A DNA stretch of 64,000 nt. Source: Enorma burkinafasonensis. GTDB taxonomy: Bacteria > Actinomycetota > Coriobacteriia > Coriobacteriales > Coriobacteriaceae. The position numbers were made by a program, and so were the translations under genes. The stretch lies in the NCBI RefSeq assembly GCF_902150035.1, contig NZ_LR597505.1, positions 62,001-126,000 on the forward strand, given 5' to 3'. Below, piece by piece: positions 10,445 to 55,488 of this stretch; within the stretch, counting starts at the first letter, position 1; each line of letters begins with the position of its first letter. Under the pieces are notes generated by a model that had not been told where the DNA came from, made no database searches, and was given only the letters and a program-made list of their open reading frames with translations.

Positions 10445-10465
10445 GCAGGGACTCCTTATACTCGT

Positions 10466-10515
10466 GTCCTGGTTTCCGACCAGGACGTATAGGCGCCTTG
10501 GTTTCCGACCAAGGC
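10466..10515 (-). promoter_or_regulatory. rpmE: Tandem-hairpin leader of rpmE (candidate L31 autoregulatory RNA)
   Basis: Two perfect 8-bp stems lie in the 5' leader: 10495-10515 and 10466-10486. On the transcript both have the identical loop CGGAA, closed by GCCUUGGU/ACCAAGGC and GUCCUGGU/ACCAGGAC. Covariation between the two stems (different bases, same pairing) shows selection for structure. Structured leaders bound by L31 are known before rpmE in several bacterial groups; whether this matches a described family was not testable here. Confidence 0.65.
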
Positions 10516-43157: not shown

Positions 43158-43986
43158 CTCACGGGGACGGGAGAGCTGCGGTGCGGCTACTGCGACTCGA
43201 GCTTTACGGTGGCGGAGGTCGAGGCGGCCTTCGCGCCTCGCCTTGAGCGCGCCGATTCCCGGATGACGGATACTTTGCCCCCGACGGGGCCGACACATGA
43301 CGTCGCGCCCATGAGGACCTACACCTGCGCCTCATGCGCCGCCGAGCTCGTGTGTGACGCCACGGCCGCGATCACGGAGTGCCCGTACTGCGGCAACCAG
43401 GCTTCCTGGGTTTGCTGCCAATCGCTTCGACTTGGGTCAGGAGGAGTGCCGGGATCGAGCCGAGCGACGCATCATCTCGACCATGGAGGACGTTCTTCGG
43501 GACACTGTGACCGGATACGACTCGGTTTGCACGGAGAGTTGCGACGCGAAAGCGTCTTGGCAGGAGGCTACATTTGCGTTGCTGCCAGTGTGGGTGCTAT
43601 ACACCACGTGGGGTGGCAGGGGATTTCTCTTTGCCATGAACGGCCAGACCGGGAAGCTCGTCGGCGACCTTCCGATTGCTGCGAGTAAGGTCGCCGCGTG
43701 GTTCGTGGGCATTTTCGCTGTTGCGCTTGGTATGATGATCGCCGCAACCTCGGTGTTTGATTTGTTCGAGGACGACAAGACACTGAGACTTGCAGCCCAA
43801 TTTGGCGTTCCCGCGCTAGTGGCTATCGTCACCTGCCTCTATTTCTATTCCGAGATGAGAACCGCCCGAGAGGCGACGCAGGCGAATGGGTTCATGAGGC
43901 GCGAGACGTTTGATCTGACGGACAAGGCCGACATCTTCACGTCCACGAGCGTGACGAGGCGTAGGATCGAGAGGACCGACAAGTAG
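43158..43986 (+). pseudogene. Broken TFIIB-type zinc-ribbon membrane protein gene
   Basis: In one frame the sequence begins GTGELRCGYCDSSFTVAEVE and continues to TYTCASCAAELVCDA and TECPYCGN. From about 43405 the family continues in the next frame: NRFDLGQEECRDRAERRI, TGYDSVCTESC, FALLPVWVLYTTWGGRGFLF, AMNGQTGKLVGDLP, then two membrane segments and a stop at 43986. The known family has one continuous frame with roughly 150 more residues between these parts. So there is an internal out-of-frame deletion, and IS-A has removed the 5' end including the first zinc ribbon. Confidence 0.8.
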
Positions 43987-44013
43987 AGGCGGCGTCTCGG
44001 TCGGTGCCAGAGC

Positions 44014-44128
44014 GAGGCCGTCCCGCCACCGGAGGAGTTGGTGGGCGGGACGGCCTCTAACTGACTAGGGATTACTGGAAGATGGAACCGGGCGCCCCTC
44101 CGGATGCCTTGCTACTGGAAGGGCGCCC
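44014..44128. terminator. Two hairpins between convergent genes
   Basis: The first has 17-18-base arms at 44014-44030 and 44040-44057 (GAGGCCGTCCCGCCACC, one bulge). The second has 12-base arms at 44090-44101 (GGGCGCCCCTCC) and 44117-44128. They lie between the zinc-ribbon pseudogene and the lipoprotein gene, which converge here. Neither has a long T-run. Confidence 0.55.
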
Positions 44129-44177
44129 AGACCGATGCGGGCTTCAGGCGCGCGTATGGAAGGCCGTATGCCAGCGC

Positions 44178-45017
44178 CTATGCGGCGAATGAGTACGTCG
44201 CGATGGTCTCGTAGGTGTTCGCGTCATAGACCTCAAGCTCGCCCTCAACGGAAACGAGGGACGCGAGGTCGGGGACGTCGCTCTGTCCGAACCACATGAA
44301 TGTCTCGGCGGTGCAGCCGGGCTTGATGGTCTCGCTCAGCACCGGGTCGGCCATGATGCCGTTTACGGAGAAGGTGCCCCACGAGGCGTCTACCGAGATG
44401 TCAGAGGCGGAGTTGTTGGTAATCCTCAGGGTGTAGCCGGAGTCGCCCGCCCAGTCGGTCTTCTTGTTTACGATCTCGATAGTGCAGGTGTCATCGTTCA
44501 CGATCTGCTGATTGACCTCCTCGACGATCTCCTCATCGTCACCCCAGGAGCTTCCGGCATCCTCTCCTTCCTCGGACTCCGCGAGCCAATCGAGGGCACT
44601 CGCGGCGTCTTCCTTGAGCTTGGTCGCGTCTTCGTCGCTGAGTTTCTTGAAGGACATCACCTCACCGTCCAAGTCGAGACTGAGAAGATCGTCCTCCAGA
44701 GTGGCTGTGACGGTCTCGCCCTCGAAGGTGATGTCGCACTCGCTCGCGCTCTTCGCCTCCCACGTGCCTTCGAGAAGCTCTCCCATGAGATTGAGCTCTG
44801 CCCTGCCCTCATCCTGCAGGTCAACATAGCAATAGATGCCTAACGCCTTCATGAGGTCGATGTCTTCTGAGGTAAGATCCGGGGCTTCGGTCAATTCCCA
44901 GGTACCTAGGAAAGCCTTTGTCGGGTCTCCGCCCCCGCCGCTTCCGCTGCAGCCCACCAAGGCAAGACAAATCGCTACCACGGTGGCAAGCGCCAAGACA
45001 AACCGATTTCTCTTCAT
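44178..45017 (-). CDS. Lipoprotein of the SPFH/zinc-ribbon operon
   Basis: The 279-residue protein starts with a lipoprotein signal (MKRNRFVLALATVVAICLALVGCS, cysteine 23 acylated), then a Gly/Ser linker. The N-terminal half holds a lipocalin-like or DUF5640-like repeat starting LGTWELTEAPDL and TFEGETVTATLEDDLLSLDL. An acidic linker (ESEEGEDAGSSWGDDEEIVEE) leads to a beta-sandwich (TIEIVNKKTDWAGDSGYTLRI, NNSASDISVDASWGTFSVNG). It should face the outside of the membrane; its role is unknown. AAGGAGG precedes the ATG. It is the last gene of a three-gene operon, 27 bases after the SPFH gene. Confidence 0.8.
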   Translation of the reverse strand: MKRNRFVLALATVVAICLALVGCSGSGGGGDPTKAFLGTWELTEAPDLTSEDIDLMKALGIYCYVDLQDEGRAELNLMGELLEGTWEAKSASECDITFEGETVTATLEDDLLSLDLDGEVMSFKKLSDEDATKLKEDAASALDWLAESEEGEDAGSSWGDDEEIVEEVNQQIVNDDTCTIEIVNKKTDWAGDSGYTLRITNNSASDISVDASWGTFSVNGIMADPVLSETIKPGCTAETFMWFGQSDVPDLASLVSVEGELEVYDANTYETIATYSFAA

Positions 45018-45044
45018 GATACCCTCCTTGCTCGTACGCTACCG

Positions 45045-46337
45045 TCAAGAGTGTGGCCTTCCGCACTCCATGCAGAACTTGCCCGTGTTGACTGCCCCGC
45101 AGCTGCATGTCCATTCGGCGGTCTCCGGTCTCGGGGATCCGCACTCGGGGCAGAAGCGGCCTGTGTTTACGGACCCGCAGCTACAGGTCCATGAGCCAGC
45201 GGTACTCGGCTTGGGCGCTCCGCACTCCATGCAGAACTTGCCCACGTTGACTGCGCCGCAGCCGCAGGCCCAGGTGTTTGGTGAGGCAGGTGCGGCGTCA
45301 GGGGCGGGCGGGGTCGCCTGCTGCTGGGCTCCCATCTGAAATAGGTTGCCTGCTCCCATGCCGCCGGCCATGCCGGCGAGGCCCAGCCCCATGAATCCCG
45401 CCATGGCCCCTCCCTCGTTGGAGGCGGCGGTACGCATGGCATCGGACTGCGCGGCTGCCAGGTTCGCGGCTGCCATGGTGGGATCGCGCATGACCGCGGC
45501 CTTCTGCAGCTCCTTAATCATCGCCTCGTCCTCGGGCGACGCCGAGATGGTGTTTACCCCGAAGGCCGCGACCTGAATGCCGCGCGTCTCCGCCCAGCTG
45601 TCACTCAGAACCTCATTGAGGGCGCGAGAGAGCTCCATGGTGTGCCCGGGCACGGCGCTGTACCTGATGCCCATCTCCGAAATCTTCGCGAAGGCGGGCT
45701 GCAGGGCGGTGAGCAGCTCGCTCTTGAGCTGGGAGTCAATCCTGTCGCGGGTGTAGACGTCCTGGATGTTGCCGCACACGTTCTTGTAGAACAGCAGCGG
45801 GTCGGTGAGGCGGTAGGAGTACTCGCCGTTGCAGCGCACCGCGATGTCCACGTCCAGGCCGATGTTTCTGTCGACCACGCGGAAGGGGACCGGGGATGCC
45901 GTACCGTACTTGTTGCCGACGATCTCCTTGGTGTTGAAGAAATAGATGCGCTGGTCACGGCCTGTGTCTCCGCCAAAGGTGAAGCGGCGGCCCAGCGTCT
46001 CGAACGAACGCCTGATGCTGTCGCCGAGGTTGCCGGCAAATACGCTCGGCTCGCTGGAGCTCTCGAAGACGAACTCGCCAGGCTCGGCGCAGGCCTCGAC
46101 CACGGCACCCTGCTCGACGATGATCATGCACTGGCCCTCATTGACGGCGACGATTGACCCATCGGAGATGACGTTGTCCTCGCCCTTGGTATTTGAGCTG
46201 CGCCCGTGTGCTGAGGTCCTCTTCTGGCCCTTCGCGGCGAGGACGTTGGCGTCCAACGAGTCGCAGTAGAAGAACTCACGCCACTGATCGGCGAGAACGC
46301 CGCCGACGGCTCCGGTGCCAGCCTTGAGAAGTCCCAT
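45045..46337 (-). CDS. SPFH domain protein with three C-terminal zinc ribbons
   Basis: The 430-residue protein has an SPFH/band-7-like domain over about residues 25-290 (REFFYCDSLDANVLAAKGQK, AVRCNGEYSYRLTDPLLFY, TRGIQVAAFGVNTISASPED), a Gly/Ala/Met-rich linker, and three zinc ribbons of the type WTCSCGxVNxGxFCxECGxP at about residues 350-430. It corresponds to the family once called virion core protein-like (YdjL), which clusters with TFIIB-type zinc-ribbon and DUF4428 proteins and is linked to membrane stress. There is no membrane segment. The ATG at 46337 has GGAGG five bases upstream. Confidence 0.88.
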   Translation of the reverse strand: MGLLKAGTGAVGGVLADQWREFFYCDSLDANVLAAKGQKRTSAHGRSSNTKGEDNVISDGSIVAVNEGQCMIIVEQGAVVEACAEPGEFVFESSSEPSVFAGNLGDSIRRSFETLGRRFTFGGDTGRDQRIYFFNTKEIVGNKYGTASPVPFRVVDRNIGLDVDIAVRCNGEYSYRLTDPLLFYKNVCGNIQDVYTRDRIDSQLKSELLTALQPAFAKISEMGIRYSAVPGHTMELSRALNEVLSDSWAETRGIQVAAFGVNTISASPEDEAMIKELQKAAVMRDPTMAAANLAAAQSDAMRTAASNEGGAMAGFMGLGLAGMAGGMGAGNLFQMGAQQQATPPAPDAAPASPNTWACGCGAVNVGKFCMECGAPKPSTAGSWTCSCGSVNTGRFCPECGSPRPETAEWTCSCGAVNTGKFCMECGRPHS

Positions 46338-46390
46338 GGTTGCCTCCAATGACGGTGTCGGAAGGACGGGATGGTGAGTCTCGGCTGCCC

Positions 46391-47131
46391 CTAAGCCGAG
46401 CCCATGGCTCCTCCGCAGTACTCGCAGCGGCCATTGGCGTCGGGGAAGGTCGTGGCTCCACAGAACGGGCAGGTACGCGCCTCCTTGGGAGCGGCGGCGG
46501 CAACGGCCTCGTCGCGAACCGCGTCACGAGCGCCGAGGAGCGCCTCGCGAATCTCCTCGGCTATGCGCACGGCCTCGCGGTAGTCGGGGGAGCCCTGGGT
46601 CTCTATGCGAGAGGTGTTTGCCTTGACGGTGATCTCATCGAAATACGGGGCGTTGACCTGAACGATTGCGTATACGTCGTAGTCGATGTCGTAGCGCGGC
46701 GGGTCGTAGCTCACGCTCGTCCCATCCTCGAGTTCGCGCTCGATTTCGGTGCGCGTCTCTCGTACGTCGACGATGCAGCCTGTGACCTGGCTGAAGTCGA
46801 TGATGTCGGGGTTGGCCTCGCGCCAGCCGGACCCAGCGGGCACGACGGCAAATGCGCGCGCGTCATCATCGATGAGCACGCGGGTTCGCTGGCCGAGCGT
46901 GCGCGTGGGCGTGAAGGAGGAGACGCGTGCCTTGTTTTCCTCGCGATAGGCAAGCTGCTCCCTGATGTCCTGTACCGTGGAGCTGCGGCGTTCGCTGAAG
47001 AAGGGGGAGAGCTTCCCGGCGCAGTCCTTGCAGAGATAGCCGTCCTCCAGCTTGCGCTTTCCCAGCAGGCCGAGCTCCTTGCCGCAGATGTCACATGACT
47101 TCTTTTCGAAGAGGCTTCCAAAGAGTCCCAT
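46391..47131 (-). CDS. DUF4428 protein with two zinc-binding modules
   Basis: The 246-residue protein starts with a DUF4428 treble-clef-like zinc site (CDICGKELGLLGKRKLEDGYLCKDC, cysteines about 13-37 in two CxxC pairs), a central DUF4429/PH-like beta domain (IIDFSQVTGCIVDVRETRTE; YDVYAIVQVNAPYFDEITVK), and a C-terminal zinc ribbon (CPFCGATTFPDANGRCEYCGG). GAAGGGA lies five bases before the ATG. It heads the operon with SPFH and lipoprotein genes, the usual company of this domain. The exact function is unknown; assembly on or sensing of membranes is inferred from the family. Confidence 0.82.
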   Translation of the reverse strand: MGLFGSLFEKKSCDICGKELGLLGKRKLEDGYLCKDCAGKLSPFFSERRSSTVQDIREQLAYREENKARVSSFTPTRTLGQRTRVLIDDDARAFAVVPAGSGWREANPDIIDFSQVTGCIVDVRETRTEIERELEDGTSVSYDPPRYDIDYDVYAIVQVNAPYFDEITVKANTSRIETQGSPDYREAVRIAEEIREALLGARDAVRDEAVAAAAPKEARTCPFCGATTFPDANGRCEYCGGAMGSA

Positions 47132-47337
47132 GGCAATCCCTTCTCCTAGGGCGCCACCGATGCGCTGGCGCTTCGGCTTGCCGCCTTTGTGGCGTTGACC
47201 TTACAATAGAGCGCGTCGCGTTTGCGGGCGATGCCCCTGCGGCCCAGGCTTGGCGGGTATTGCGCGCCTGATGTCCCATGTTCGGGGGGCGGCGTTGCGT
47301 ACAATGGACTAGGATCGGGTCGAGCGGGGGTGTCGCG

Positions 47338-49128
47338 ATGTCAGGGATTGCGTCGATGGTTCGAAAGGCCGCCGCACGCGTGCGAGCTGCCGACAGGCGT
47401 CAGGTCCTCGTCGCCTGCGCCGCATGTGCCCTTGCGATCATCGTGCTGCTGCTCTTGTCGGAGGGTCTTCTCGACCACGATATCTGGCGTTCGGCCGACC
47501 GGGACGCGTTCTATCCCCTTGGGCACTACAACACGACGCCTCACATGGCAGCGACGGTCGCCATCCTGTCGATATGGGGTCCCTTTTCGTGCTGGCGGTG
47601 CTTCGATCCTCTGGTTCGTAGGTACATGGCCGGCTGCTTCATGTTGTTTGCCGGCTGGATGCTCGTCGTCATCGTTAAATACGCCGTGGTTTGGGACCCC
47701 GCCGTCGAGCTCCTGTGGTACTGCTTCTACGTTCCTATCCTGCTCGTCCCCATGCTGTGCGTGTTCACGGCGTTTCGGGCTGCCGGCGTGGATGGCCGCC
47801 CTGCCGTCGTGAGGTGCGGGAGGGCACTCCTCGCGATCAACGCCTTGCTTCTGGTGGTGGTGTTCACCAACGGGATCCACCACGCGGTCTTCTCCTTTGA
47901 TGCCACAGACCCCGACTGGTCTGAGAATTACGAGTACGCGCCTCTGTACTACGTGGTGTATGCGATGGCCGTCGGTCAGTTCGTCGCGTTCTTTGCCTTG
48001 CTTTTTGCAAACGCGTATCGGCAGCTCAGGGGCGCAATCGTCACCGTGTCGCTCGTCTGCGCGCTGGCGGTCGTGTACGGATTGGCCTACGTGCTGCGCG
48101 TCCCGTTCTTCTTCTCGGGCAACTTCTCTCTCAGCTATACGTGGTTCGTATGCGTGGCAATCGAGCTGTGCTTCGACTTCGGCATCATTCCGGCCTTCGC
48201 TCACTACGGGCGCCTGTTCCAGACCCTCCCCATGGACGTGAAGGTGTTCTCCCTCTCTGCCGAGAGGGGGGATGGTCCCATCTACGCGACGTTTCAGGCC
48301 GGCCCCGTCTCGCCCCAGGGGCGGTCCTGCGTCGAGGCGTGCGTGACGGGGCCCGTACGGCTCATCTCTGACGCGACCCCCGATGTCGTGTATCACGCCC
48401 AGAGGGTCTCGGGCGGCATCACGCTGGTCACCGAGGACATCTCGGCCGTCTCCTCGCGCCGACGCGTGCTCGAGCAACGGCACGCGGCCCTTCGCTCAAG
48501 CTGTGCACTGCTCGAGCAGGAGCGCCTGATGCGCGAGCGCCTCCGCAAGCAGGAGAGCGAAAGGGCGCTCTACGACGAGGTTGACCAGTCCATCTCCGAG
48601 GCGCTTGGGAGGGCCCGGGAGCTCATGTGCCAGGTTGAGGGCCTGCCGGGTGACGAGGCGGTCTTCAAGCTGACGATTGCCAAGATGCTCATCTCGTATT
48701 GCAAGCGCAAGGGCGGCATCGTGCTCGCGTGTCGAAGCGACTGCGACTTCGAGCGCGAGAAGCTCCAACTCATCGTGGGTGAGCTCGTTACCGACCTCCA
48801 GACCGCGGGGGTGAGCTGCGGAGCGCTCGTCGAGACCGGCGAGATGATCCCGGTCGATGCCGTGAGCGTGCTGTACGACTGCCTGTACGACTTCTCGATC
48901 GCGTCGCTGTACTGCGTGGACCCCGTTCTCATGATGTACTTCTCCGACTACAGCGACGGCGCGATAGAGATGCGGCTCGCGCTCTCCACGGGGGAGCTTT
49001 GCAACCTCGCCGAATCCGAGGAGATGCAGGAGCTGCGCGTGTTGCTCGATGGGAGGGACGTGGCCTATCGCCTCACGGGGGAAGAGGGGTCGCTTGTGCT
49101 CGTTGTGGTCGTGAGGAAGGAGAGGTAG
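47338..49128 (+). CDS. Seven-helix membrane protein with degenerate kinase-like C-terminus
   Basis: The 596-residue protein has about seven or eight N-terminal membrane segments (residues 28-290, such as VLVACAACALAIIVLLLLS and ALAVVYGLAYVLRVPFFF), then a cytoplasmic half with a coiled-coil stretch (LLEQERLMRERLRKQESERA). The region after it has the size and layout of a histidine kinase core, but no HxxxQ/HDxxQ histidine, N box or G boxes. It ends one base before the histidine kinase gene starts, so both are made together. Probably a sensor or pseudokinase partner. The ATG at 47338 has only a weak GGGGG site. Confidence 0.7.
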   Translation: MSGIASMVRKAAARVRAADRRQVLVACAACALAIIVLLLLSEGLLDHDIWRSADRDAFYPLGHYNTTPHMAATVAILSIWGPFSCWRCFDPLVRRYMAGCFMLFAGWMLVVIVKYAVVWDPAVELLWYCFYVPILLVPMLCVFTAFRAAGVDGRPAVVRCGRALLAINALLLVVVFTNGIHHAVFSFDATDPDWSENYEYAPLYYVVYAMAVGQFVAFFALLFANAYRQLRGAIVTVSLVCALAVVYGLAYVLRVPFFFSGNFSLSYTWFVCVAIELCFDFGIIPAFAHYGRLFQTLPMDVKVFSLSAERGDGPIYATFQAGPVSPQGRSCVEACVTGPVRLISDATPDVVYHAQRVSGGITLVTEDISAVSSRRRVLEQRHAALRSSCALLEQERLMRERLRKQESERALYDEVDQSISEALGRARELMCQVEGLPGDEAVFKLTIAKMLISYCKRKGGIVLACRSDCDFEREKLQLIVGELVTDLQTAGVSCGALVETGEMIPVDAVSVLYDCLYDFSIASLYCVDPVLMMYFSDYSDGAIEMRLALSTGELCNLAESEEMQELRVLLDGRDVAYRLTGEEGSLVLVVVVRKER

Positions 49129-49129
49129 C

Positions 49130-50662
49130 GTGGAGGTCCTGTTTCACCTCAACGACGTCTCATTGCTGCTGCTGGGTACCGCCTGCCTCTTTGCAATGGC
49201 CTTGCAGGGGGCGCATCTCTTCGTTCTGGCGCTCTGGCGAGAGAGCCCGATGCACGTCGGCACGCTGGTGTACGAGGCCCTGCTGATGGTGCACCTGCTG
49301 CTCGCCTCTGTGATTCTTCGCGAGGCCTGCGCGAACTACGCCTACGTGTCGCTGTGGTCGCGCTCGTTTTGCGTGCCGGCGATCGATGCGAGCTGGGTGA
49401 ACGTCGCGCCCGTTCTCTGGGGGACGATTCTGGCGCTCGTGGCGCGGCGCCCCATCATGGTCGCGGAGCTTGTGGTCATGGCATGCTGGCTCCCTCCCTT
49501 CGTATGGCTTCTCGGGAGTGCATGGCCCTGGGTCGTGGCGATTGGCGTGGCATTCATGACGTCTCGCTCGCTTGCCTGCGTCGCGCTTGACTACCGACGT
49601 GGTGGCGAGCTCGTCACGCGATTCTCGCTCGCCGAAGTCGTGAACACGGCTCAGGAGGGGATACTCTGCTACAAGGCGGATGGCAGGATTCTCGTGATGA
49701 ACGACGCCATGCGCGGCCTTCTCGAGACGCTGGGGTGTCGGAGCGTGCTCGTCGACGCGTGCGAGGTGCGTCGGATATTGCTGTCAGATGCGCGAGAGAT
49801 TCACGAGTGCATGCTGGATGCAAATGGTGACGTGGGCGAGGCGTGGATAACGGCCCCCAACTCGACCAGATGGCGTCTCGTGTTCGATGTGGTCCGGTTG
49901 GGGATGGGGCATTGCGGGCGCGTGATCGCGACGGACGTAACGGAGCTCATGAAGCTCAACGAGGAGCTTGACGCGACCAACGCCGAGCTTGCGCTCGTGG
50001 AGGACCACCTGCGCGCGTCTCTTGCGGTTGTCGATGCGACGGCGGAGCTCGACGCGCTCGCCCACATGCGTGCGCGAGTGCATGACGTCATCGGACAGCG
50101 TCTGTCGATTCTTCACCGCGCGCTCGAAGACGGGGACCTCTCTCGTAGCCATCTGGGCAATCTCCGAGAGATGGTTGACACCATCATGGCCGACTTGGCC
50201 ATTCGCGAGCAGGCCGACCCCAAGGCAGACCTGATGTCGGTCATCGAGGCGTTCGAGCTGATTGGTGTCGGCATAGACGTTTCCGGCTCTCTTCCCGACC
50301 GCGACGAGGTGGCGGATGCGTTTGTTCGCGTCGTGAGGGAGGCGGTGACGAACGCCGTGCGCCACGCGCGCGCGACTTCGGTCGAGGTGAGGCTCGAATC
50401 GACGGACGAGGGTGCGGATTCGGGCGGGAGGGACGGGCAGCACGGGCGTCGGGCATGCTGGTCTCTGTCGATTTGCGACAACGGGACGCCGCTCAAAGCG
50501 GCCGAGGCGTGTGGGTCGGGCATCCCGGGAATGCGTCTGGCGGTGGAGGAGGTGGGCGGGGTCCTGTACGTGGAGCCGACCCCCACGTTTACGGTACGCG
50601 CGGTCGTGCCCCGCCACGCTTTTGGTGCCGTGGGCCAGGCCGTCGAGGAAGGAGAGCGATGA
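49130..50662 (+). CDS. Sensor histidine kinase (HisKA_3/NarX-like core)
   Basis: The 510-residue protein has about five or six N-terminal membrane segments, a PAS-like domain (about residues 165-280: VVNTAQEGILCYKADGRILVMND), a coiled coil, a phosphoacceptor site RVHDVIGQRLSIL near residue 320, and an HATPase with N box REAVTNAVRHARA, D box ICDNGTP and G box GSGIPGMRLAVEEVGG. The GTG at 49130 has AAGGAG seven bases upstream and directly follows the stop of the preceding gene. Its end overlaps the response regulator start (ATGA). It should phosphorylate that regulator; the signal is unknown. Confidence 0.92.
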   Translation: MEVLFHLNDVSLLLLGTACLFAMALQGAHLFVLALWRESPMHVGTLVYEALLMVHLLLASVILREACANYAYVSLWSRSFCVPAIDASWVNVAPVLWGTILALVARRPIMVAELVVMACWLPPFVWLLGSAWPWVVAIGVAFMTSRSLACVALDYRRGGELVTRFSLAEVVNTAQEGILCYKADGRILVMNDAMRGLLETLGCRSVLVDACEVRRILLSDAREIHECMLDANGDVGEAWITAPNSTRWRLVFDVVRLGMGHCGRVIATDVTELMKLNEELDATNAELALVEDHLRASLAVVDATAELDALAHMRARVHDVIGQRLSILHRALEDGDLSRSHLGNLREMVDTIMADLAIREQADPKADLMSVIEAFELIGVGIDVSGSLPDRDEVADAFVRVVREAVTNAVRHARATSVEVRLESTDEGADSGGRDGQHGRRACWSLSICDNGTPLKAAEACGSGIPGMRLAVEEVGGVLYVEPTPTFTVRAVVPRHAFGAVGQAVEEGER

Positions 50663-51285
50663 GGGTGATTCGCGTTGTGGTCGTGGAAGACCAGACCATG
50701 CTGAGGGACTCTTTGGTTGCCGCCATCAATCGCGAGCTCGACATGGAGGTCGTCGCCTCGCTCGCCGATGCGGCGGACGTGCTCGACCTCGATGCTGGCC
50801 GTGAGATTGACGTGGCGCTGCTCGACGTGTGCACGGAGAACAATTCGAGCGGCATCATTGCCGCGAGGAAGCTCAGGGAGGCTCGCCCGCAGGTGAAGAC
50901 GGTCATCATGACGGGCATGTCGGACGTGACCTTTGTCCGCCAGGCGCGTGAGGCGGGCGTTGACAGCTTTATCTATAAGAACGTCAGGACGGACGACCTG
51001 CTGTCGGTGATTCGATCCACCGTAGAGGGGTACTCGACCTTTCCCTCATCTCGGAAGGGTGATGCCCCCGAAGTCGAGCTGCTGGACGAGCTCGAGCTCA
51101 AGATCTTGTATCTCACCTGTCAGGCGAAGAGCCGCAGGGAGATAGCGGCGGCGCTGTACATGAGCGAAGGCACGGTAAAGCGGCACATTTCCGAGATGCT
51201 CGCGAAGACGGGCTATGACAACCTGCTCAAGCTGGCAGTTCGCGCGGTGTCAAGCGGAAGCATCGCGGTCAACGTCGAGCGCTGA
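50659..51285 (+). CDS. NarL/LuxR-family response regulator
   Basis: The 208-residue protein has a receiver domain (acidic pair E10-D11, phosphoacceptor D56 in VALLDVC, lysine K107 in FIYKN) and a C-terminal LuxR helix-turn-helix (LELKILYLTCQAKSRREIAA, YMSEGTVKRHISEMLAKTG). The ATG at 50659 shares ATGA with the end of the kinase gene and has GGAGAG upstream. Its targets are unknown; the truncated FtsX-type permease gene just downstream on the other strand may be a remnant of a target transporter. Confidence 0.93.
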   Translation: MRVIRVVVVEDQTMLRDSLVAAINRELDMEVVASLADAADVLDLDAGREIDVALLDVCTENNSSGIIAARKLREARPQVKTVIMTGMSDVTFVRQAREAGVDSFIYKNVRTDDLLSVIRSTVEGYSTFPSSRKGDAPEVELLDELELKILYLTCQAKSRREIAAALYMSEGTVKRHISEMLAKTGYDNLLKLAVRAVSSGSIAVNVER

Positions 51286-51328
51286 CCTGTCTTCCCGAAG
51301 ACCCTACATTCAACCGACAAGCCCCCAA

Positions 51329-51456
51329 CGGATTTGGGTTCGTCGTGAGGTCCTCTAGGAGCGAGCGATAAGAGGCCGCACGCGTACTGCCTGCGGAAAC
51401 GCTGAAAGTGCTCTGCTGCGGAGACTCTTGAGGTCCCTGCAGCGAACCCAAATCCG
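51329..51456. repeat. Intergenic inverted-repeat element C
   Basis: Perfect 14-base arms CGGATTTGGGTTCG (51329-51342) and CGAACCCAAATCCG (51443-51456) enclose 100 bases, in the 204-base spacer between the response regulator and the permease fragment. TGAGGTCC occurs near both ends of the interior. The inner sequence CGCTGAAAG also occurs, inverted, next to element A. No coding frame is supported. Confidence 0.65.
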
Positions 51457-51489
51457 AACAGGGCCGCGCGCTGGCGCCCGCGCGGGGGG

Positions 51490-52043
51490 CTACTCCGTGC
51501 GGAGGGCGTCGATGAGCGGTGCGGCCCGCAGGCGGCGCAGCGCGTGGGCGCAGCTGGCGAGAAGGGCGAGCGCCACCAGTGCCACGGCGCCTACGACGTG
51601 CGCCCACGGCACCTCGAGCCCCAGGCTCCGCATGGTGAGGCCGCCCTGCGTGCCGATCCAGGCGCCGAGCGCGAGCGCGGCGGCGAGTCCCAGCGCGAGG
51701 CCCCATGCTGCCGTGCGCGCGCACTCGAGCGCGGGCATCCTCCTCAGGTCGCGCTCACCCATCCCGACGGAGCGCAGCACGGCGAAGTCGTGCGCGCGCA
51801 AAAGCACGCTCGCGGCCGAGGAGTTGAACGCGCTCGCCACGCCGACGGCGGCGGCAGCCACGCCAAAGGTCGACAGGAGCGCCCGTATGGCGCCGTAGAG
51901 CGCCTCAGACCGGTGCGCCTCGGCCCGCTCGTCGACGACGCCGTCCCAGGTGGCGAGCGCAGGGTTCTCCTCGAGAAGCCGATCCACGTCGGCCGCCGCC
52001 GCAGACGAGTCATCTGCCGTCGCGTAGAGCGTGGTCATGAATC
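51490..52043 (-). pseudogene. C-terminal fragment of an FtsX-like ABC permease (MacB type)
   Basis: About 182 residues remain: an extracytoplasmic piece (MTTLYATADDSSAAAADVDR), then three membrane segments of the FtsX domain with LSTFGVAAAAVGVASAFNSSA, DFAVLRSVGMGERDLRRMPA and a C-terminal end RAAPLIDALRTE. An intact permease is 400-800 residues. The upstream part is cut off at 52044 by the end of IS-B. An ATG at 52038 happens to be present but is inside the domain. GC content is higher than in the rest of the island. Confidence 0.82.
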
Positions 52044-52071
52044 TGAATCTACCCCGATTTCGTTTACACCC

Positions 52072-52920
52072 CTACGCCGCCTTCAGGCGGCGATCGTCCT
52101 CGGGCCGGTTGGCCCGCTCGAACTCCTCGGGGCTGAGGTTCCCCAGCGCCGAGTGCGTCCTGGCCCTGTTGCAGGAGCACTCGATGTACTCGAAGATCTC
52201 GAGCGCCGCCTGGTCGCGGCTCTCGAAGGTGCGCGCGTGCACGCACTCGGCCTTGATGATGCCCATGAGCGACTTCATGGCCGCGTTGTCCCACAGCGAC
52301 GATATCGATCCCATCGACGGCTCGATCCCGGCCTCCCGCATCGTCTTGCCGAGCAGCAGCGAGGCGTACTGCGAGCCGTGGTCGCTGTGATGGATGCAGC
52401 CCTCGGGAGGGCGCCTGCGGGCGATCGCCATCCTGAGCGCGTCGTCGGCCAGTTCCGCCGTCATGCGCGCCGACATCGACCAGCCGACGACCCTCCTCGA
52501 CCACACGTCCATCAAGACGGCCAGGCAGGGCCATCCCTGGTGGGTCCTCGCGTAGGTGATGTCCGCGAACCACGCGCGGTTCGGGCCGCCCGCGGCGAAG
52601 TCGCGGCGCACCAGGTCGGGCGCGGTGTTGGCCTGCGGGGCGGCCGGTTTGGCCGCGCTCCTCGGGCGCCTGGCGCCGCCCCTGGTGGTGCCGGCCCACC
52701 CGTTGTCGCGCATGATGCGCGCCACGCGCTTGCGCGACGTGCGCTCGCCGGAGCGCCTGAGCTCGGCGAAGACCTTGGGGGCGCCGTAGGTGCCGCGGCT
52801 GGCGGCGCATATCTCGGAGATCGCCGCGGCCAGCTCGGCGTCGCGCAGGTCGTGCGCGCTCGGCGGCCGCTTTCTCCATGCGCGGTGGCCCTGCCTGGTG
52901 ACATGGAGGGCCGCGCGCAT
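52072..52920 (-). CDS. IS-B transposase OrfB, catalytic residue changed
   Basis: The 282-residue frame (open further upstream to about 53010) has the HTH_21 region and RNase H-like integrase domain. The first two acidic residues are present (FADITYARTH and HHSDHGSQY). At the third position the sequence is NAAMKSLMGIIKAE; IS3-family enzymes have Glu where this Lys stands (codon AAG against GAG). The enzyme is therefore probably inactive. In a working element this frame would be fused to OrfA by -1 frameshifting. Confidence 0.8.
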   Translation of the reverse strand: MRAALHVTRQGHRAWRKRPPSAHDLRDAELAAAISEICAASRGTYGAPKVFAELRRSGERTSRKRVARIMRDNGWAGTTRGGARRPRSAAKPAAPQANTAPDLVRRDFAAGGPNRAWFADITYARTHQGWPCLAVLMDVWSRRVVGWSMSARMTAELADDALRMAIARRRPPEGCIHHSDHGSQYASLLLGKTMREAGIEPSMGSISSLWDNAAMKSLMGIIKAECVHARTFESRDQAALEIFEYIECSCNRARTHSALGNLSPEEFERANRPEDDRRLKAA

Positions 52921-52988
52921 CTCGGATATGCTCCAGGCGCCCTCGTTGAGCAGGACGAAAGCGAACCTCGCCCCCTCCGCCTGCGAGC

Positions 52989-53333
52989 CTACAGCCGCCT
53001 GCTGGCGAAGAAGGCGCTCGCTTTCAAAGGTATCCCGTTCTCGCGCCTGAGCCGCTCGTTCTCGTGCCTCGGCCCGCGGAGGTCCTCCGCCATCTGGGAG
53101 GGGTTGTCCCCTGCCGGCGCCTGCGCGGCGTCGGCCCTCTTGACCCGGTCCGACAGGCTCCCCGGGTCGACGCCGGGCTCGCGGGCGGTCTCCGCGTAGG
53201 TACCGCCCCGCTCCCCGTGCAGCCTCACCGCCTGCTGCTCGAGCTCTGCCGGATACCTGGGCGACGGATGCCCCGTCCCATGCCCCCTCTCCCCGTTTAC
53301 GGCATCATGCCCAAACGGAACTCGATGTGTCAA
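52989..53333 (-). CDS. IS-B transposase OrfA
   Basis: The OrfA body reads SPRYPAELEQQAVRLHGERG, a helix-turn-helix (TYAETAREPGVDPGSLSDRV) and a zipper (RHENERLRRENGIPLKASAF). The start codon is uncertain because the first 25 residues look unlike the family; a start near 53260 is likely. The zipper end reads GIPLKAS where relatives have an EILKKAS-like sequence, which is also where the slippery site has been lost. Confidence 0.75.
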   Translation of the reverse strand: MTHRVPFGHDAVNGERGHGTGHPSPRYPAELEQQAVRLHGERGGTYAETAREPGVDPGSLSDRVKRADAAQAPAGDNPSQMAEDLRGPRHENERLRRENGIPLKASAFFASRRL

Positions 53334-53354
53334 CGGAAACGGGGGAGATTCAAA

Positions 53355-53924
53355 CTACTCGTTGGCGGCCTCGGCCGCACGGACCCTGGAAAAGCTCAGG
53401 CAGTCGGCGATCTTCTCGCCCGTGCGCAGGTAGGTGTACGTGGGCATCTCGAAGAGCACGGGGCGGAGCGCCGCCACGTCGACCTTGCCGTCCTCGGTCA
53501 GGACCGCGTCGTCCGCATAGATACCGGCCACCGAGCAGACGAAGTTCTCGAAGCGATCCACCTCGTAGACGTCCTCCACGCGGCACTCCATGGAGAGCTT
53601 GGCGTCGTCGACGAGCGGCGCGCCGGCCTCGCCCGCCGTCCAGGCGAAGACCTCGGCCTTGCTCTCGCGTGCGCCGCTCACGCTGCCGCAGAAGTCCGCG
53701 CGGTCGAGCCAGGACTCGTCGACCACGTTCACGGAGAGCACGCCGGCCCGCTTGATGTGTTGGTTGATGAAGTGCGCGCCGGCAAGGCTCACCATGATCT
53801 TGCTGTGGCTCAGGATGCCCGTGTGCGCGACGAGCGTCCAGGTGGGCTCGTCGCCGTTCATGGCGCCCACCACGATCACGGGCACGGGATAGAGCGCGGG
53901 CTTGGTTCCGATATTGCTCTTCAT
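53355..53924 (-). CDS. Flavin reductase-like domain protein
   Basis: The 189-residue protein has the FMN-binding split barrel of the flavin reductase/ferric reductase family: KPALYPVPVIVVGAM, PTWTLVAHTGILSHSKIMVSL, FINQHIKRAGVLSVNVV and EFADFCG-like WLDRADFCGSVSG. It likely reduces FMN or binds it for redox reactions. The ATG at 53924 has AAGGAG nine bases upstream. The stop codon lies two bases from the right end of IS-B, so the gene appears just complete. It follows the DUF362 and flavodoxin genes on the same strand. Confidence 0.85.
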   Translation of the reverse strand: MKSNIGTKPALYPVPVIVVGAMNGDEPTWTLVAHTGILSHSKIMVSLAGAHFINQHIKRAGVLSVNVVDESWLDRADFCGSVSGARESKAEVFAWTAGEAGAPLVDDAKLSMECRVEDVYEVDRFENFVCSVAGIYADDAVLTEDGKVDVAALRPVLFEMPTYTYLRTGEKIADCLSFSRVRAAEAANE

Positions 53925-53987
53925 AAGACAGCACTCCTTCGACCCGCTCACAGGGTCAATCAATCTGAGTCGCGACGCACCGCCGCG

Positions 53988-54878
53988 TCAGCACTCCACG
54001 AGCTCGTAGTCGCGCGTACCGTATCCCAGCTGCGCGGCCGCGGCGATGGTGCGGATGCCGTTGCGGCTCACCACGCGCTCCAGGAAATGGCCCACGCCGG
54101 GGTCCTCGGAGCCCATGATGAGGTCCATGCACGCCTGGTCGATTGCCACCGGGTCCGTCGAGACCAGGATGCCGATATCCGCCATGCAGGGGTCCTCGGC
54201 GACCACGCAGCAGTCGCAGTCGACCGAGAGGTTCTTCATCACGTTCACGTACGCGATCTTGCCCGCGAAGTGCTCGTGCACGGTCATCGCGGCGTCGGCC
54301 ATGGCCTCGGGGAACGCGCTCTTGCTGGAATGCTTCTCCCAGCACGCGTAGCGGTCGTCCGTCACGCCGGCGGAATGGATGAGCGCCTTGCCCGCACGGC
54401 TCGCGCAGCCGATGGAGAGCTGCTTCAAGGCGCCGCCGTACCCGCCCATGGGGTGCCCCTTGAAGTGCGCGAGCACGAGCATCGAGTCGTAGTCGAGGAT
54501 GTGCTTGCCCACGTGGTTCTCCTTGAGCTGGAGCCCGCCCACGATGGGCCAGACCACGTCCGGACCCTCCGCGTCCATGATGTCGACGTCGAAGAGCTCA
54601 GCCCAGCCGTGCTCCTCCATGAGCTTCCAGTGCGCCTCGGTATGGTCGCGCACCCCGCCCGCGGCGTCGCCATAGGCGGTGTTGCACTCGACGATGGTGC
54701 CATGGACCGCCTCGACCATGGGCTTCCAGAACTCCGGCGTGAGGTAGTTCTGGTTGCCCTGCTCGCCGGAGTGCACCTTGACGGCGACCTTCCCGGGAAG
54801 CTCGACCCCGAGCATGCGGTAGAGCCTGACCACGTTCTCCGGTGTGATGTCGCGTGTGAAGTAGACCTTTGCTGTCAT
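53988..54878 (-). CDS. DUF362 domain protein (iron-sulfur related)
   Basis: The 296-residue protein is a DUF362 member: VAVKVHSGEQGNQNYLTPEF, VECNTAYGD, LVLAHFKGHPMGGYGGALKQ and a SIGCASRAGKALIHS region. A cysteine patch (VDCDCCVVAEDPCMADIGIL) and DPVAIDQACMDLI follow. Many family members carry ferredoxin clusters; here the typical CxxCxxC repeat is absent, but cysteines suggest metal binding. The ATG at 54878 has AAAGGGG five bases upstream. It lies 47 bases after the flavodoxin gene and 63 before the flavin reductase gene: a redox operon. Confidence 0.85.
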   Translation of the reverse strand: MTAKVYFTRDITPENVVRLYRMLGVELPGKVAVKVHSGEQGNQNYLTPEFWKPMVEAVHGTIVECNTAYGDAAGGVRDHTEAHWKLMEEHGWAELFDVDIMDAEGPDVVWPIVGGLQLKENHVGKHILDYDSMLVLAHFKGHPMGGYGGALKQLSIGCASRAGKALIHSAGVTDDRYACWEKHSSKSAFPEAMADAAMTVHEHFAGKIAYVNVMKNLSVDCDCCVVAEDPCMADIGILVSTDPVAIDQACMDLIMGSEDPGVGHFLERVVSRNGIRTIAAAAQLGYGTRDYELVEC

Positions 54879-54925
54879 CTCAACCCCTTTGCTGTCGATA
54901 TCGTTCCGCGAGCGCAACGGCGCGG

Positions 54926-55393
54926 CTACGCGCGGGCCTCGCGTGCCCACGCGGCCGCCCCGCTACCGTTGAGCAGCCGGCCGGGCATCCACGTCGCGTC
55001 GGGGCGCAGGGACGCCAGGCGCCGCTCAGCCTGCGCGATGCCGCTCCCGCCCGAGGTCGCGAATGGGATGACCGTCTTGCCCGCAAGGCCCGCACCCTCG
55101 ACGAAGGTGTCGACGGCGCGCGGCTCCACGTACCACCAGATGGGAAAGCCCAGAAAGGCCGTGTCGTAGGCCTCCATCCCGGGGAGCTCGCCGGCGAGCG
55201 CGGGGCGGGATGCATCATCCGCCATCTCCTGCGAGCTGCGGCTCCCCTTGTCCGTCCAATCGAGGTCCGCCGCGGTATAGCGCTCCGCGGGAGCAATCTC
55301 GTACAGGTCCGCGGCGAGCGCCTCGGCGATCTCGTGCGCCACGCGCGCCGTCGATCCGCTCGCGGAGAAGTACGCCACCAACGTCTTGCCCAT
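54926..55393 (-). CDS. Flavodoxin
   Basis: The 155-residue flavodoxin has the phosphate loop MGKTLVAYFSASGSTARVA, YEIAPAERYTAADLDWTDKG, a WWYVEPRAVDTF loop around the flavin and IPFATSGGSGI. It should carry electrons as an FMN protein. The ATG at 55393 has AAAGGA six bases upstream. It is the first gene of the flavodoxin-DUF362-flavin reductase operon, transcribed from the promoter at 55489-55517 and divergent from a TetR gene that probably controls it. Confidence 0.9.
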   Translation of the reverse strand: MGKTLVAYFSASGSTARVAHEIAEALAADLYEIAPAERYTAADLDWTDKGSRSSQEMADDASRPALAGELPGMEAYDTAFLGFPIWWYVEPRAVDTFVEGAGLAGKTVIPFATSGGSGIAQAERRLASLRPDATWMPGRLLNGSGAAAWAREARA

Positions 55394-55488
55394 CGCCCAT
55401 CCTTTCATCAGGCTGTTCCATCCGGTTCGGCGCGGCGCCCCACCCTCGCGGACGGGCAGAACCCGTTGCCGGCCGGTTCTTGGCTCCT

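Follow-up and report, generated by a model that had tools for sequence, protein, structure and literature searches.

In LiaFSR a role is assigned to a third protein, LiaF, while MadRS is a two-component system of membrane stress for which we know of no third kinase-like gene. Only a few natural pseudokinases have been described for bacterial two-component systems, mostly as isolated cases. One histidine-kinase relative, DivL of Caulobacter, carries a tyrosine at the acceptor site and retains the N, G1, F and G2 boxes (PMC4211667). In an evolved strain of Corynebacterium glutamicum, the inactive kinase ChrS forms heterodimers with the active HrrS and the output is raised (PMC9491836). The SPFH protein YdjI of the Bacillus subtilis ydj operon is required for the recruitment of PspA to the membrane (PMC8581546), and zinc ribbons are recurrent in such membrane-stress systems (PMC11237479). 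Here we analyze three adjacent genes, A, B and C, in a stretch of 64,000 nucleotides of Enorma burkinafasonensis (contig NZ_LR597505.1, positions 62,001 to 126,000), the whole of which is called the window in the following.

The reading we favour, with a probability of about 0.6, is a membrane signalling system of three proteins, A, B and C, that probably responds to membrane stress; the pseudokinase A would pass its input to B, and C would switch on a linked gene cassette. A would be a seven-transmembrane (7TM) sensor derived from a histidine kinase of the HisKA_7TM type whose kinase core has decayed. Most likely it would pair with or dock on the active kinase B in a physical complex and tune the kinase or phosphatase activity of B up or down. 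B would phosphorylate C, and C would bind the inverted repeat TGGGnCATnTGnCCCA and control its own operon as well as the linked cassette, with TGGGCCATGTGTCCCA and the window region 47132–47337 as proposed targets. The cassette, made up of DUF4428, SPFH/zinc-ribbon, zinc-ribbon and lipoprotein genes, would serve a membrane or envelope stress response comparable in its working to LiaFSR or to the ydj/PSP systems. What the sequences themselves show is the order and conservation of the genes, the lost catalytic residues of A, the link with the cassette and the repeat common to both.

Three adjacent genes and their conservation

47338–49128, + strand: gene A, ATG start, 596 amino acids; 7TM-like sensor, pseudokinase candidate
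48187–49125, + strand: cytoplasmic half of A (residues 284–596), alignable with B; its single-sequence model has low confidence
49130–50662, + strand: gene B, GTG start, 510 amino acids; membrane-bound histidine kinase in which His318, the N box and the G boxes are present
50659–51285, + strand: gene C, 208 amino acids; response regulator with a receiver and a LuxR/GerE domain
47132–47337, divergent: intergenic region between A and the cassette gene c4, probable two-way promoter

The open reading frames (ORFs) of the window place the start of B one base past the stop of A, and the ATG of C overlaps the stop of B in the sequence ATGA. A has an extra in-frame ATG upstream at 47278; the start taken is 47338. 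An earlier note on this stretch, made from the letters alone, had described the three genes as a tightly coupled operon, and their adjacency on the + strand bears this out.

The terms DHp, N box, G box and Bergerat fold are used here in their customary sense. Judged by its boxes, B is a histidine kinase: H318, G322, G452 and G464 are conserved in 33/33 aligned rows, N408 and H412 in 32/33 (the remaining row is gapped) and E404 in 31/33. This agrees with the previous description of B as a complete histidine kinase, though HATPase_c in the window copy scores 24.9 bits and thereby slightly below the Pfam cut-off of 26.4. C had been called a LuxR-type regulator, and both its receiver and its LuxR/GerE domain are found above the Pfam cut-offs. 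The H, N and G boxes of B and the receiver-LuxR architecture of C together are those of a two-component system.

We examined 56 loci from Coriobacteriia and found the ORF of A in 55 of them. In 54 of these 55 loci B is the next gene on the strand of A, mostly with an overlap of 4 nt and in several families (those labelled f2 and f3 are presumably Atopobiaceae and Eggerthellaceae); the sole exception, L127, runs out at the contig edge. Because the order is kept in 54/55 loci, the adjacency of A and B is more than chance, and a chance neighbourhood was ruled out. C is the third gene in 47 of the 54 loci with A and B. The positional rule used placed it elsewhere in three loci, one of which (L110) is an overcalled ORF, and it was undetected in four, two of them at contig edges. 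The earlier note had suggested a search for the same triad in Coriobacteriia and would have been refuted by homologues of A occurring mostly without the kinase: the trio is a conserved unit, A is regularly followed by B, and this check did not refute the note.

These counts also bear on the possibility of an ordinary two-component system made up of B and C, with which A is only co-transcribed while doing a separate job. B has a membrane part of its own, some of its relatives show a weak PAS match, and the contact between A and B is one that we infer. However, the position of A directly before B, kept across several families and mostly with the 4-nt overlap, makes such an unconnected role improbable.

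A protein search found A in 24 of the 65 genomes of the family (2/6 genera). With a 15-row profile it was present in 76/396 Coriobacteriia genomes and 35/153 genera, and with a 34-row profile in 5/396 genomes of a phylum-wide sample, one of them outside the order with a weak score of 34 bits. The genome of the window contains no second full copy of A (the other match spans only 61 residues, E 0.02), no relatives were found in viral contigs, and the literature searches listed no paper on the trio. In two loci (L028 and L044, genomes G316 and G009) a stop lies within gene A and B and C remain open. In locus L049 (5571–7262) of genus g3, which we take to be Collinsella, gene A contains an insert of 1.7 kb with an open frame free of Pfam matches.

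Protein A in comparison with kinase B

A had been described as a membrane protein lacking the phosphoacceptor histidine and the ATP-binding boxes. Seven hydrophobic segments are seen in the window copy, whose cytoplasmic part may be divided into PAS-like, coil, DHp-like and degenerate HATPase-like segments. The column aligned to His318 of B contains histidine in 33/33 rows of B and in 0/34 rows of A, where 24/34 have Asp or Glu; a histidine anywhere in the 26-residue stretch around this column is present in 9/34 rows. The N-box motif is absent in 34/34 rows of A, and the motif LYDCxYD is conserved at the position expected for it. Strings resembling D.G plus G.G occur in eight of the 34 rows, none of them with an N box. 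The acidic residue in the acceptor column and the conserved YDC motif could be taken as signs of an atypical yet active kinase that uses another residue, a highly improbable explanation given that the N box is missing throughout.

The window copy of A has no Pfam or NCBIfam match of note. HisKA_7TM is matched at E≤0.1 in 18/34 A rows and lies above the Pfam cut-off in seven of the ten A relatives tested. In a profile-profile comparison residues 208–593 of A align with residues 101–494 of B (E 6.8e-10, 356 columns). When the PAS+coil+catalytic halves of the two proteins were compared, the match reached 95% probability and a score of 64.9, whereas none of 20 column shuffles scored above 23.3; with the core rows only, the score was 38.3. 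For the best small pairs of segments, P was 8e-4 for HATPase-HATPase, 0.012 for PAS-PAS and 0.027 for DHp-DHp, the latter on a par with the lowest reversed control (0.023).

A might instead be an accessory membrane sensor in its own right, with a C-terminal domain unrelated to a decayed kinase, and still work with B and C. Comparing the HATPase parts alone gives no significant match when only the core A rows are used, no HATPase family is among the 14 Pfam families listed for the 34 A rows, and a profile search of the PDB with A found no kinase and no solved structure of A. The collinear match of PAS, coil and catalytic part to B, however, is well over the column shuffles, and the membrane part of the relatives is HisKA_7TM, a module named for histidine kinases. 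We therefore give an accessory sensor of this kind limited credence. That A is a decayed kinase is suggested by these alignments with moderate confidence, and a HATPase-like fold of its C-terminal part is only moderately supported. The degenerate HATPase fold that the earlier note had predicted stands in part: the joint match to B and the membrane part of the relatives speak for it, whereas the HATPase segment taken alone is significant only with distant relatives and the fold model was of no use here. This model has a long helix at the region of the predicted coiled coil, with low overall confidence.

The linked cassette and the shared inverted repeat

Gene clustering around the loci yielded four recurrent neighbour families, c4, c5, c7 and c3. 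In the window these genes and the inverted repeats next to them are located as follows:

46391–47131, − strand: c4, DUF4428 zinc-ribbon protein
45045–46349, − strand: c5, SPFH (Band_7_1) protein with C-terminal zinc ribbons
44178–45017, − strand: c3, lipoprotein; lipobox by eye, weak lipocalin-like hint in one relative
43354–43986, + strand: c7 remnant, zinc-ribbon protein gene with 412 bp missing at 43402 in comparison to genomes G274 and G305
47231–47246: weak repeat copy scoring 10.3 bits, 99 bp upstream of the c4 ATG
47263–47278: second weak inverted repeat, 8.1 bits

Band_7_1 is found in c5 at 3.9e-17; its zinc ribbon is below the Pfam cut-off, with CxC/CxxC motifs visible by eye. The cassette is located divergently upstream of the trio in the window, convergently downstream in g3 and downstream on the same strand in other loci. 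Since its position varies among the loci, the link to the trio is not simple synteny. Defining a strong A as a match of at least 200 bits (64 genomes among the 396), we found a strong c5 in 59 of the 64 strong-A genomes, within 6 kb of A in 51 of them, and in 105/396 genomes overall. Among genomes with a weak A, c5 lies within 6 kb in 2/12.

An unsupervised palindrome search with 29 upstream regions of A as training set returned TGGGnCnnnnGnCCCA. Its log-likelihood is 81.6, compared with 28.9–34.9 for six shuffled sets, and a score of 11 bits is attained by 16 of the 29 training regions. The inverted repeat TGGGnCATnTGnCCCA is present in front of A and again in front of the distant cassette. 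In all 11 scored g3 loci, where c4 is about 5 kb away from A, the matrix, trained solely on the upstream regions of A, matches the region upstream of c4 with 16.0–18.2 bits, and these sites read TGGGCCwTnTGTCCCA at a distance of 97–127 bp. For comparison, 15 bits are reached by 0.9% and 11 bits by 3.1% of 4000 random segments; among all scored c4 regions, 14/29 reach 11 bits. Allowing one mismatch, the pattern was counted in 43 g3 genomes, with a mean of 10.5 strand-hits in those with A (n=23) versus 3.25 in those without (n=20). The reversed control gave 1.2 with A versus 1.9 without A. Furthermore, paired copies (exact or with one mismatch) 0.2–1 kb apart occur in 12 of 13 g3 genomes that contain A and whose places are listed, and in the two g3 loci read (G006, G011) they precede lipoprotein-like tandem genes.

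Tandem lipoprotein-like genes with repeat copies upstream are seen in g3 locus L137 (3250–4899), where they match no Pfam family, and a candidate repeat site is present at a DUF2207 gene of g3. Repeats beside genes for YkuD and DivIC in g3 were dropped as targets because by eye they look like intrinsic terminators.

Several observations weigh against a three-protein system with a pseudokinase and a common operator. With respect to A, HisKA_7TM is not matched by the window's own copy, the single-sequence fold model has a predicted local distance difference test (pLDDT) value of 44, plain hidden Markov model searches are barely above shuffles, and the HATPase segment alone gives P 8e-4 against B only with distant rows on both sides and 0.03–0.08 otherwise. 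With respect to the cassette, c5 occurs in 37 genomes without any A, and a strong c5 is absent in 5 of the 64 strong-A genomes. As for the repeat, 13 of the 29 A upstream regions are below 11 bits, both repeats of the window are weak with one good half each, and further g3 sites (L135, L138) resemble terminators. In addition, the genomes counted are related, and p-values overstate their independence.

Transfer of the locus and comparison with known systems

The trio and the cassette lie in a block with the following borders:

43159–52039, no strand: transferred block; genomes from another family, including Olsenella sp. An285, share about 99% identity with it
51490–52038, − strand: 3' fragment of an FtsX-like permease gene, last 182 residues, cut by the insertion sequence (IS) element
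52040–53352, − strand: IS3-like element (outer ends approximate), right edge of the block, inside the FtsX gene
52072–52920, − strand: rve transposase of the IS3-like element
52989–53333, − strand: HTH_Tnp_1 ORF of the IS3-like element

Long pieces of the block are 98.6–99.2% identical to four genomes of the other family, and one piece of 1.5 kb is 96.4% identical. Because of this identity of about 99%, the block, trio and cassette included, is by sequence comparison a recent transfer; as it spans both, trio and cassette moved together. A and c5 are absent in the four other genomes of the window's genus. Wholesale contamination of the bin was ruled out as a cause, since positions 5–21 kb of the window match its own genus best (up to 83–90% identity) and genus g11 of the other family less well (about 70–76% over long pieces, one piece 81%). 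A local misassembly may lie behind the block. The frame of the FtsX gene stays open and is longer in loci L091 and L094.

Outside the block, genes for a flavin reductase, a DUF362 protein and a flavodoxin follow in a row beyond the IS element (53355–55408, − strand), and an L31-Coriobacteria ribosomal protein leader is located at 10452–10486 (− strand).

The interpretation given in the earlier note was thus supported in part; it had missed the cassette linked to the trio, the repeat that the two share and the horizontal transfer. A more far-reaching form of our model, which we put forward tentatively and consider doubtful as a whole, would make A an obligate co-receptor of B in a heteromeric sensor: A would give the membrane-stress input, the acidic residue fixed where the acceptor histidine would be would act as a permanent phospho-mimic, C would drive an SPFH/zinc-ribbon/lipoprotein regulon for membrane care via TGGGnCATnTGnCCCA, and the module would move between families as a unit. 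The three-protein system we favour would represent an entire conserved family that keeps a decayed kinase next to the protein it probably works with. Since an operator and the genes under its control are predicted as well, the role of a pseudokinase co-receptor could be tested within one operon. The trio probably controls genes for the care of the cell membrane in gut bacteria, Olsenella and related groups, and would be a candidate envelope-stress response for Coriobacteriia, which are common in the gut and about whose signalling little is known.

Among the described systems, LiaFSR likewise encodes a histidine kinase, its regulator and a membrane protein in three neighbouring genes and is tied to membrane-protecting genes (PMC11237479). 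A differs in being a kinase-like 7TM protein, and no LiaF-type family is among the 14 Pfam families listed for the 34 A rows. DivL is comparable as a histidine-kinase relative without acceptor histidine that tunes another kinase (PMC4211667); in contrast to DivL, A has no N box, mainly Asp or Glu at the site, a 7TM part and an operon shared with its presumed partner. ChrS is comparable as an inactive kinase that forms heterodimers with an active one, but it is a laboratory frameshift mutant and not a conserved natural protein (PMC9491836). The cassette resembles pspA-ydjGHI, a membrane-stress operon whose SPFH protein ends in a zinc ribbon and has a second zinc-ribbon protein as partner (PMC8581546, PMC11237479). 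It differs by its DUF4428 and lipoprotein genes and by its link to the trio; pspA is not in the cassette, and the only PspA match of the genome is on contig C35. The best NCBIfam match of C is MadR with 78 bits and B matches MadS weakly, both far under the NCBIfam cut-offs (300 and 500 bits). By the tests made the trio is a member of neither LiaFSR nor the DivL type, and it would work like LiaFSR or like a kinase tuned by DivL.

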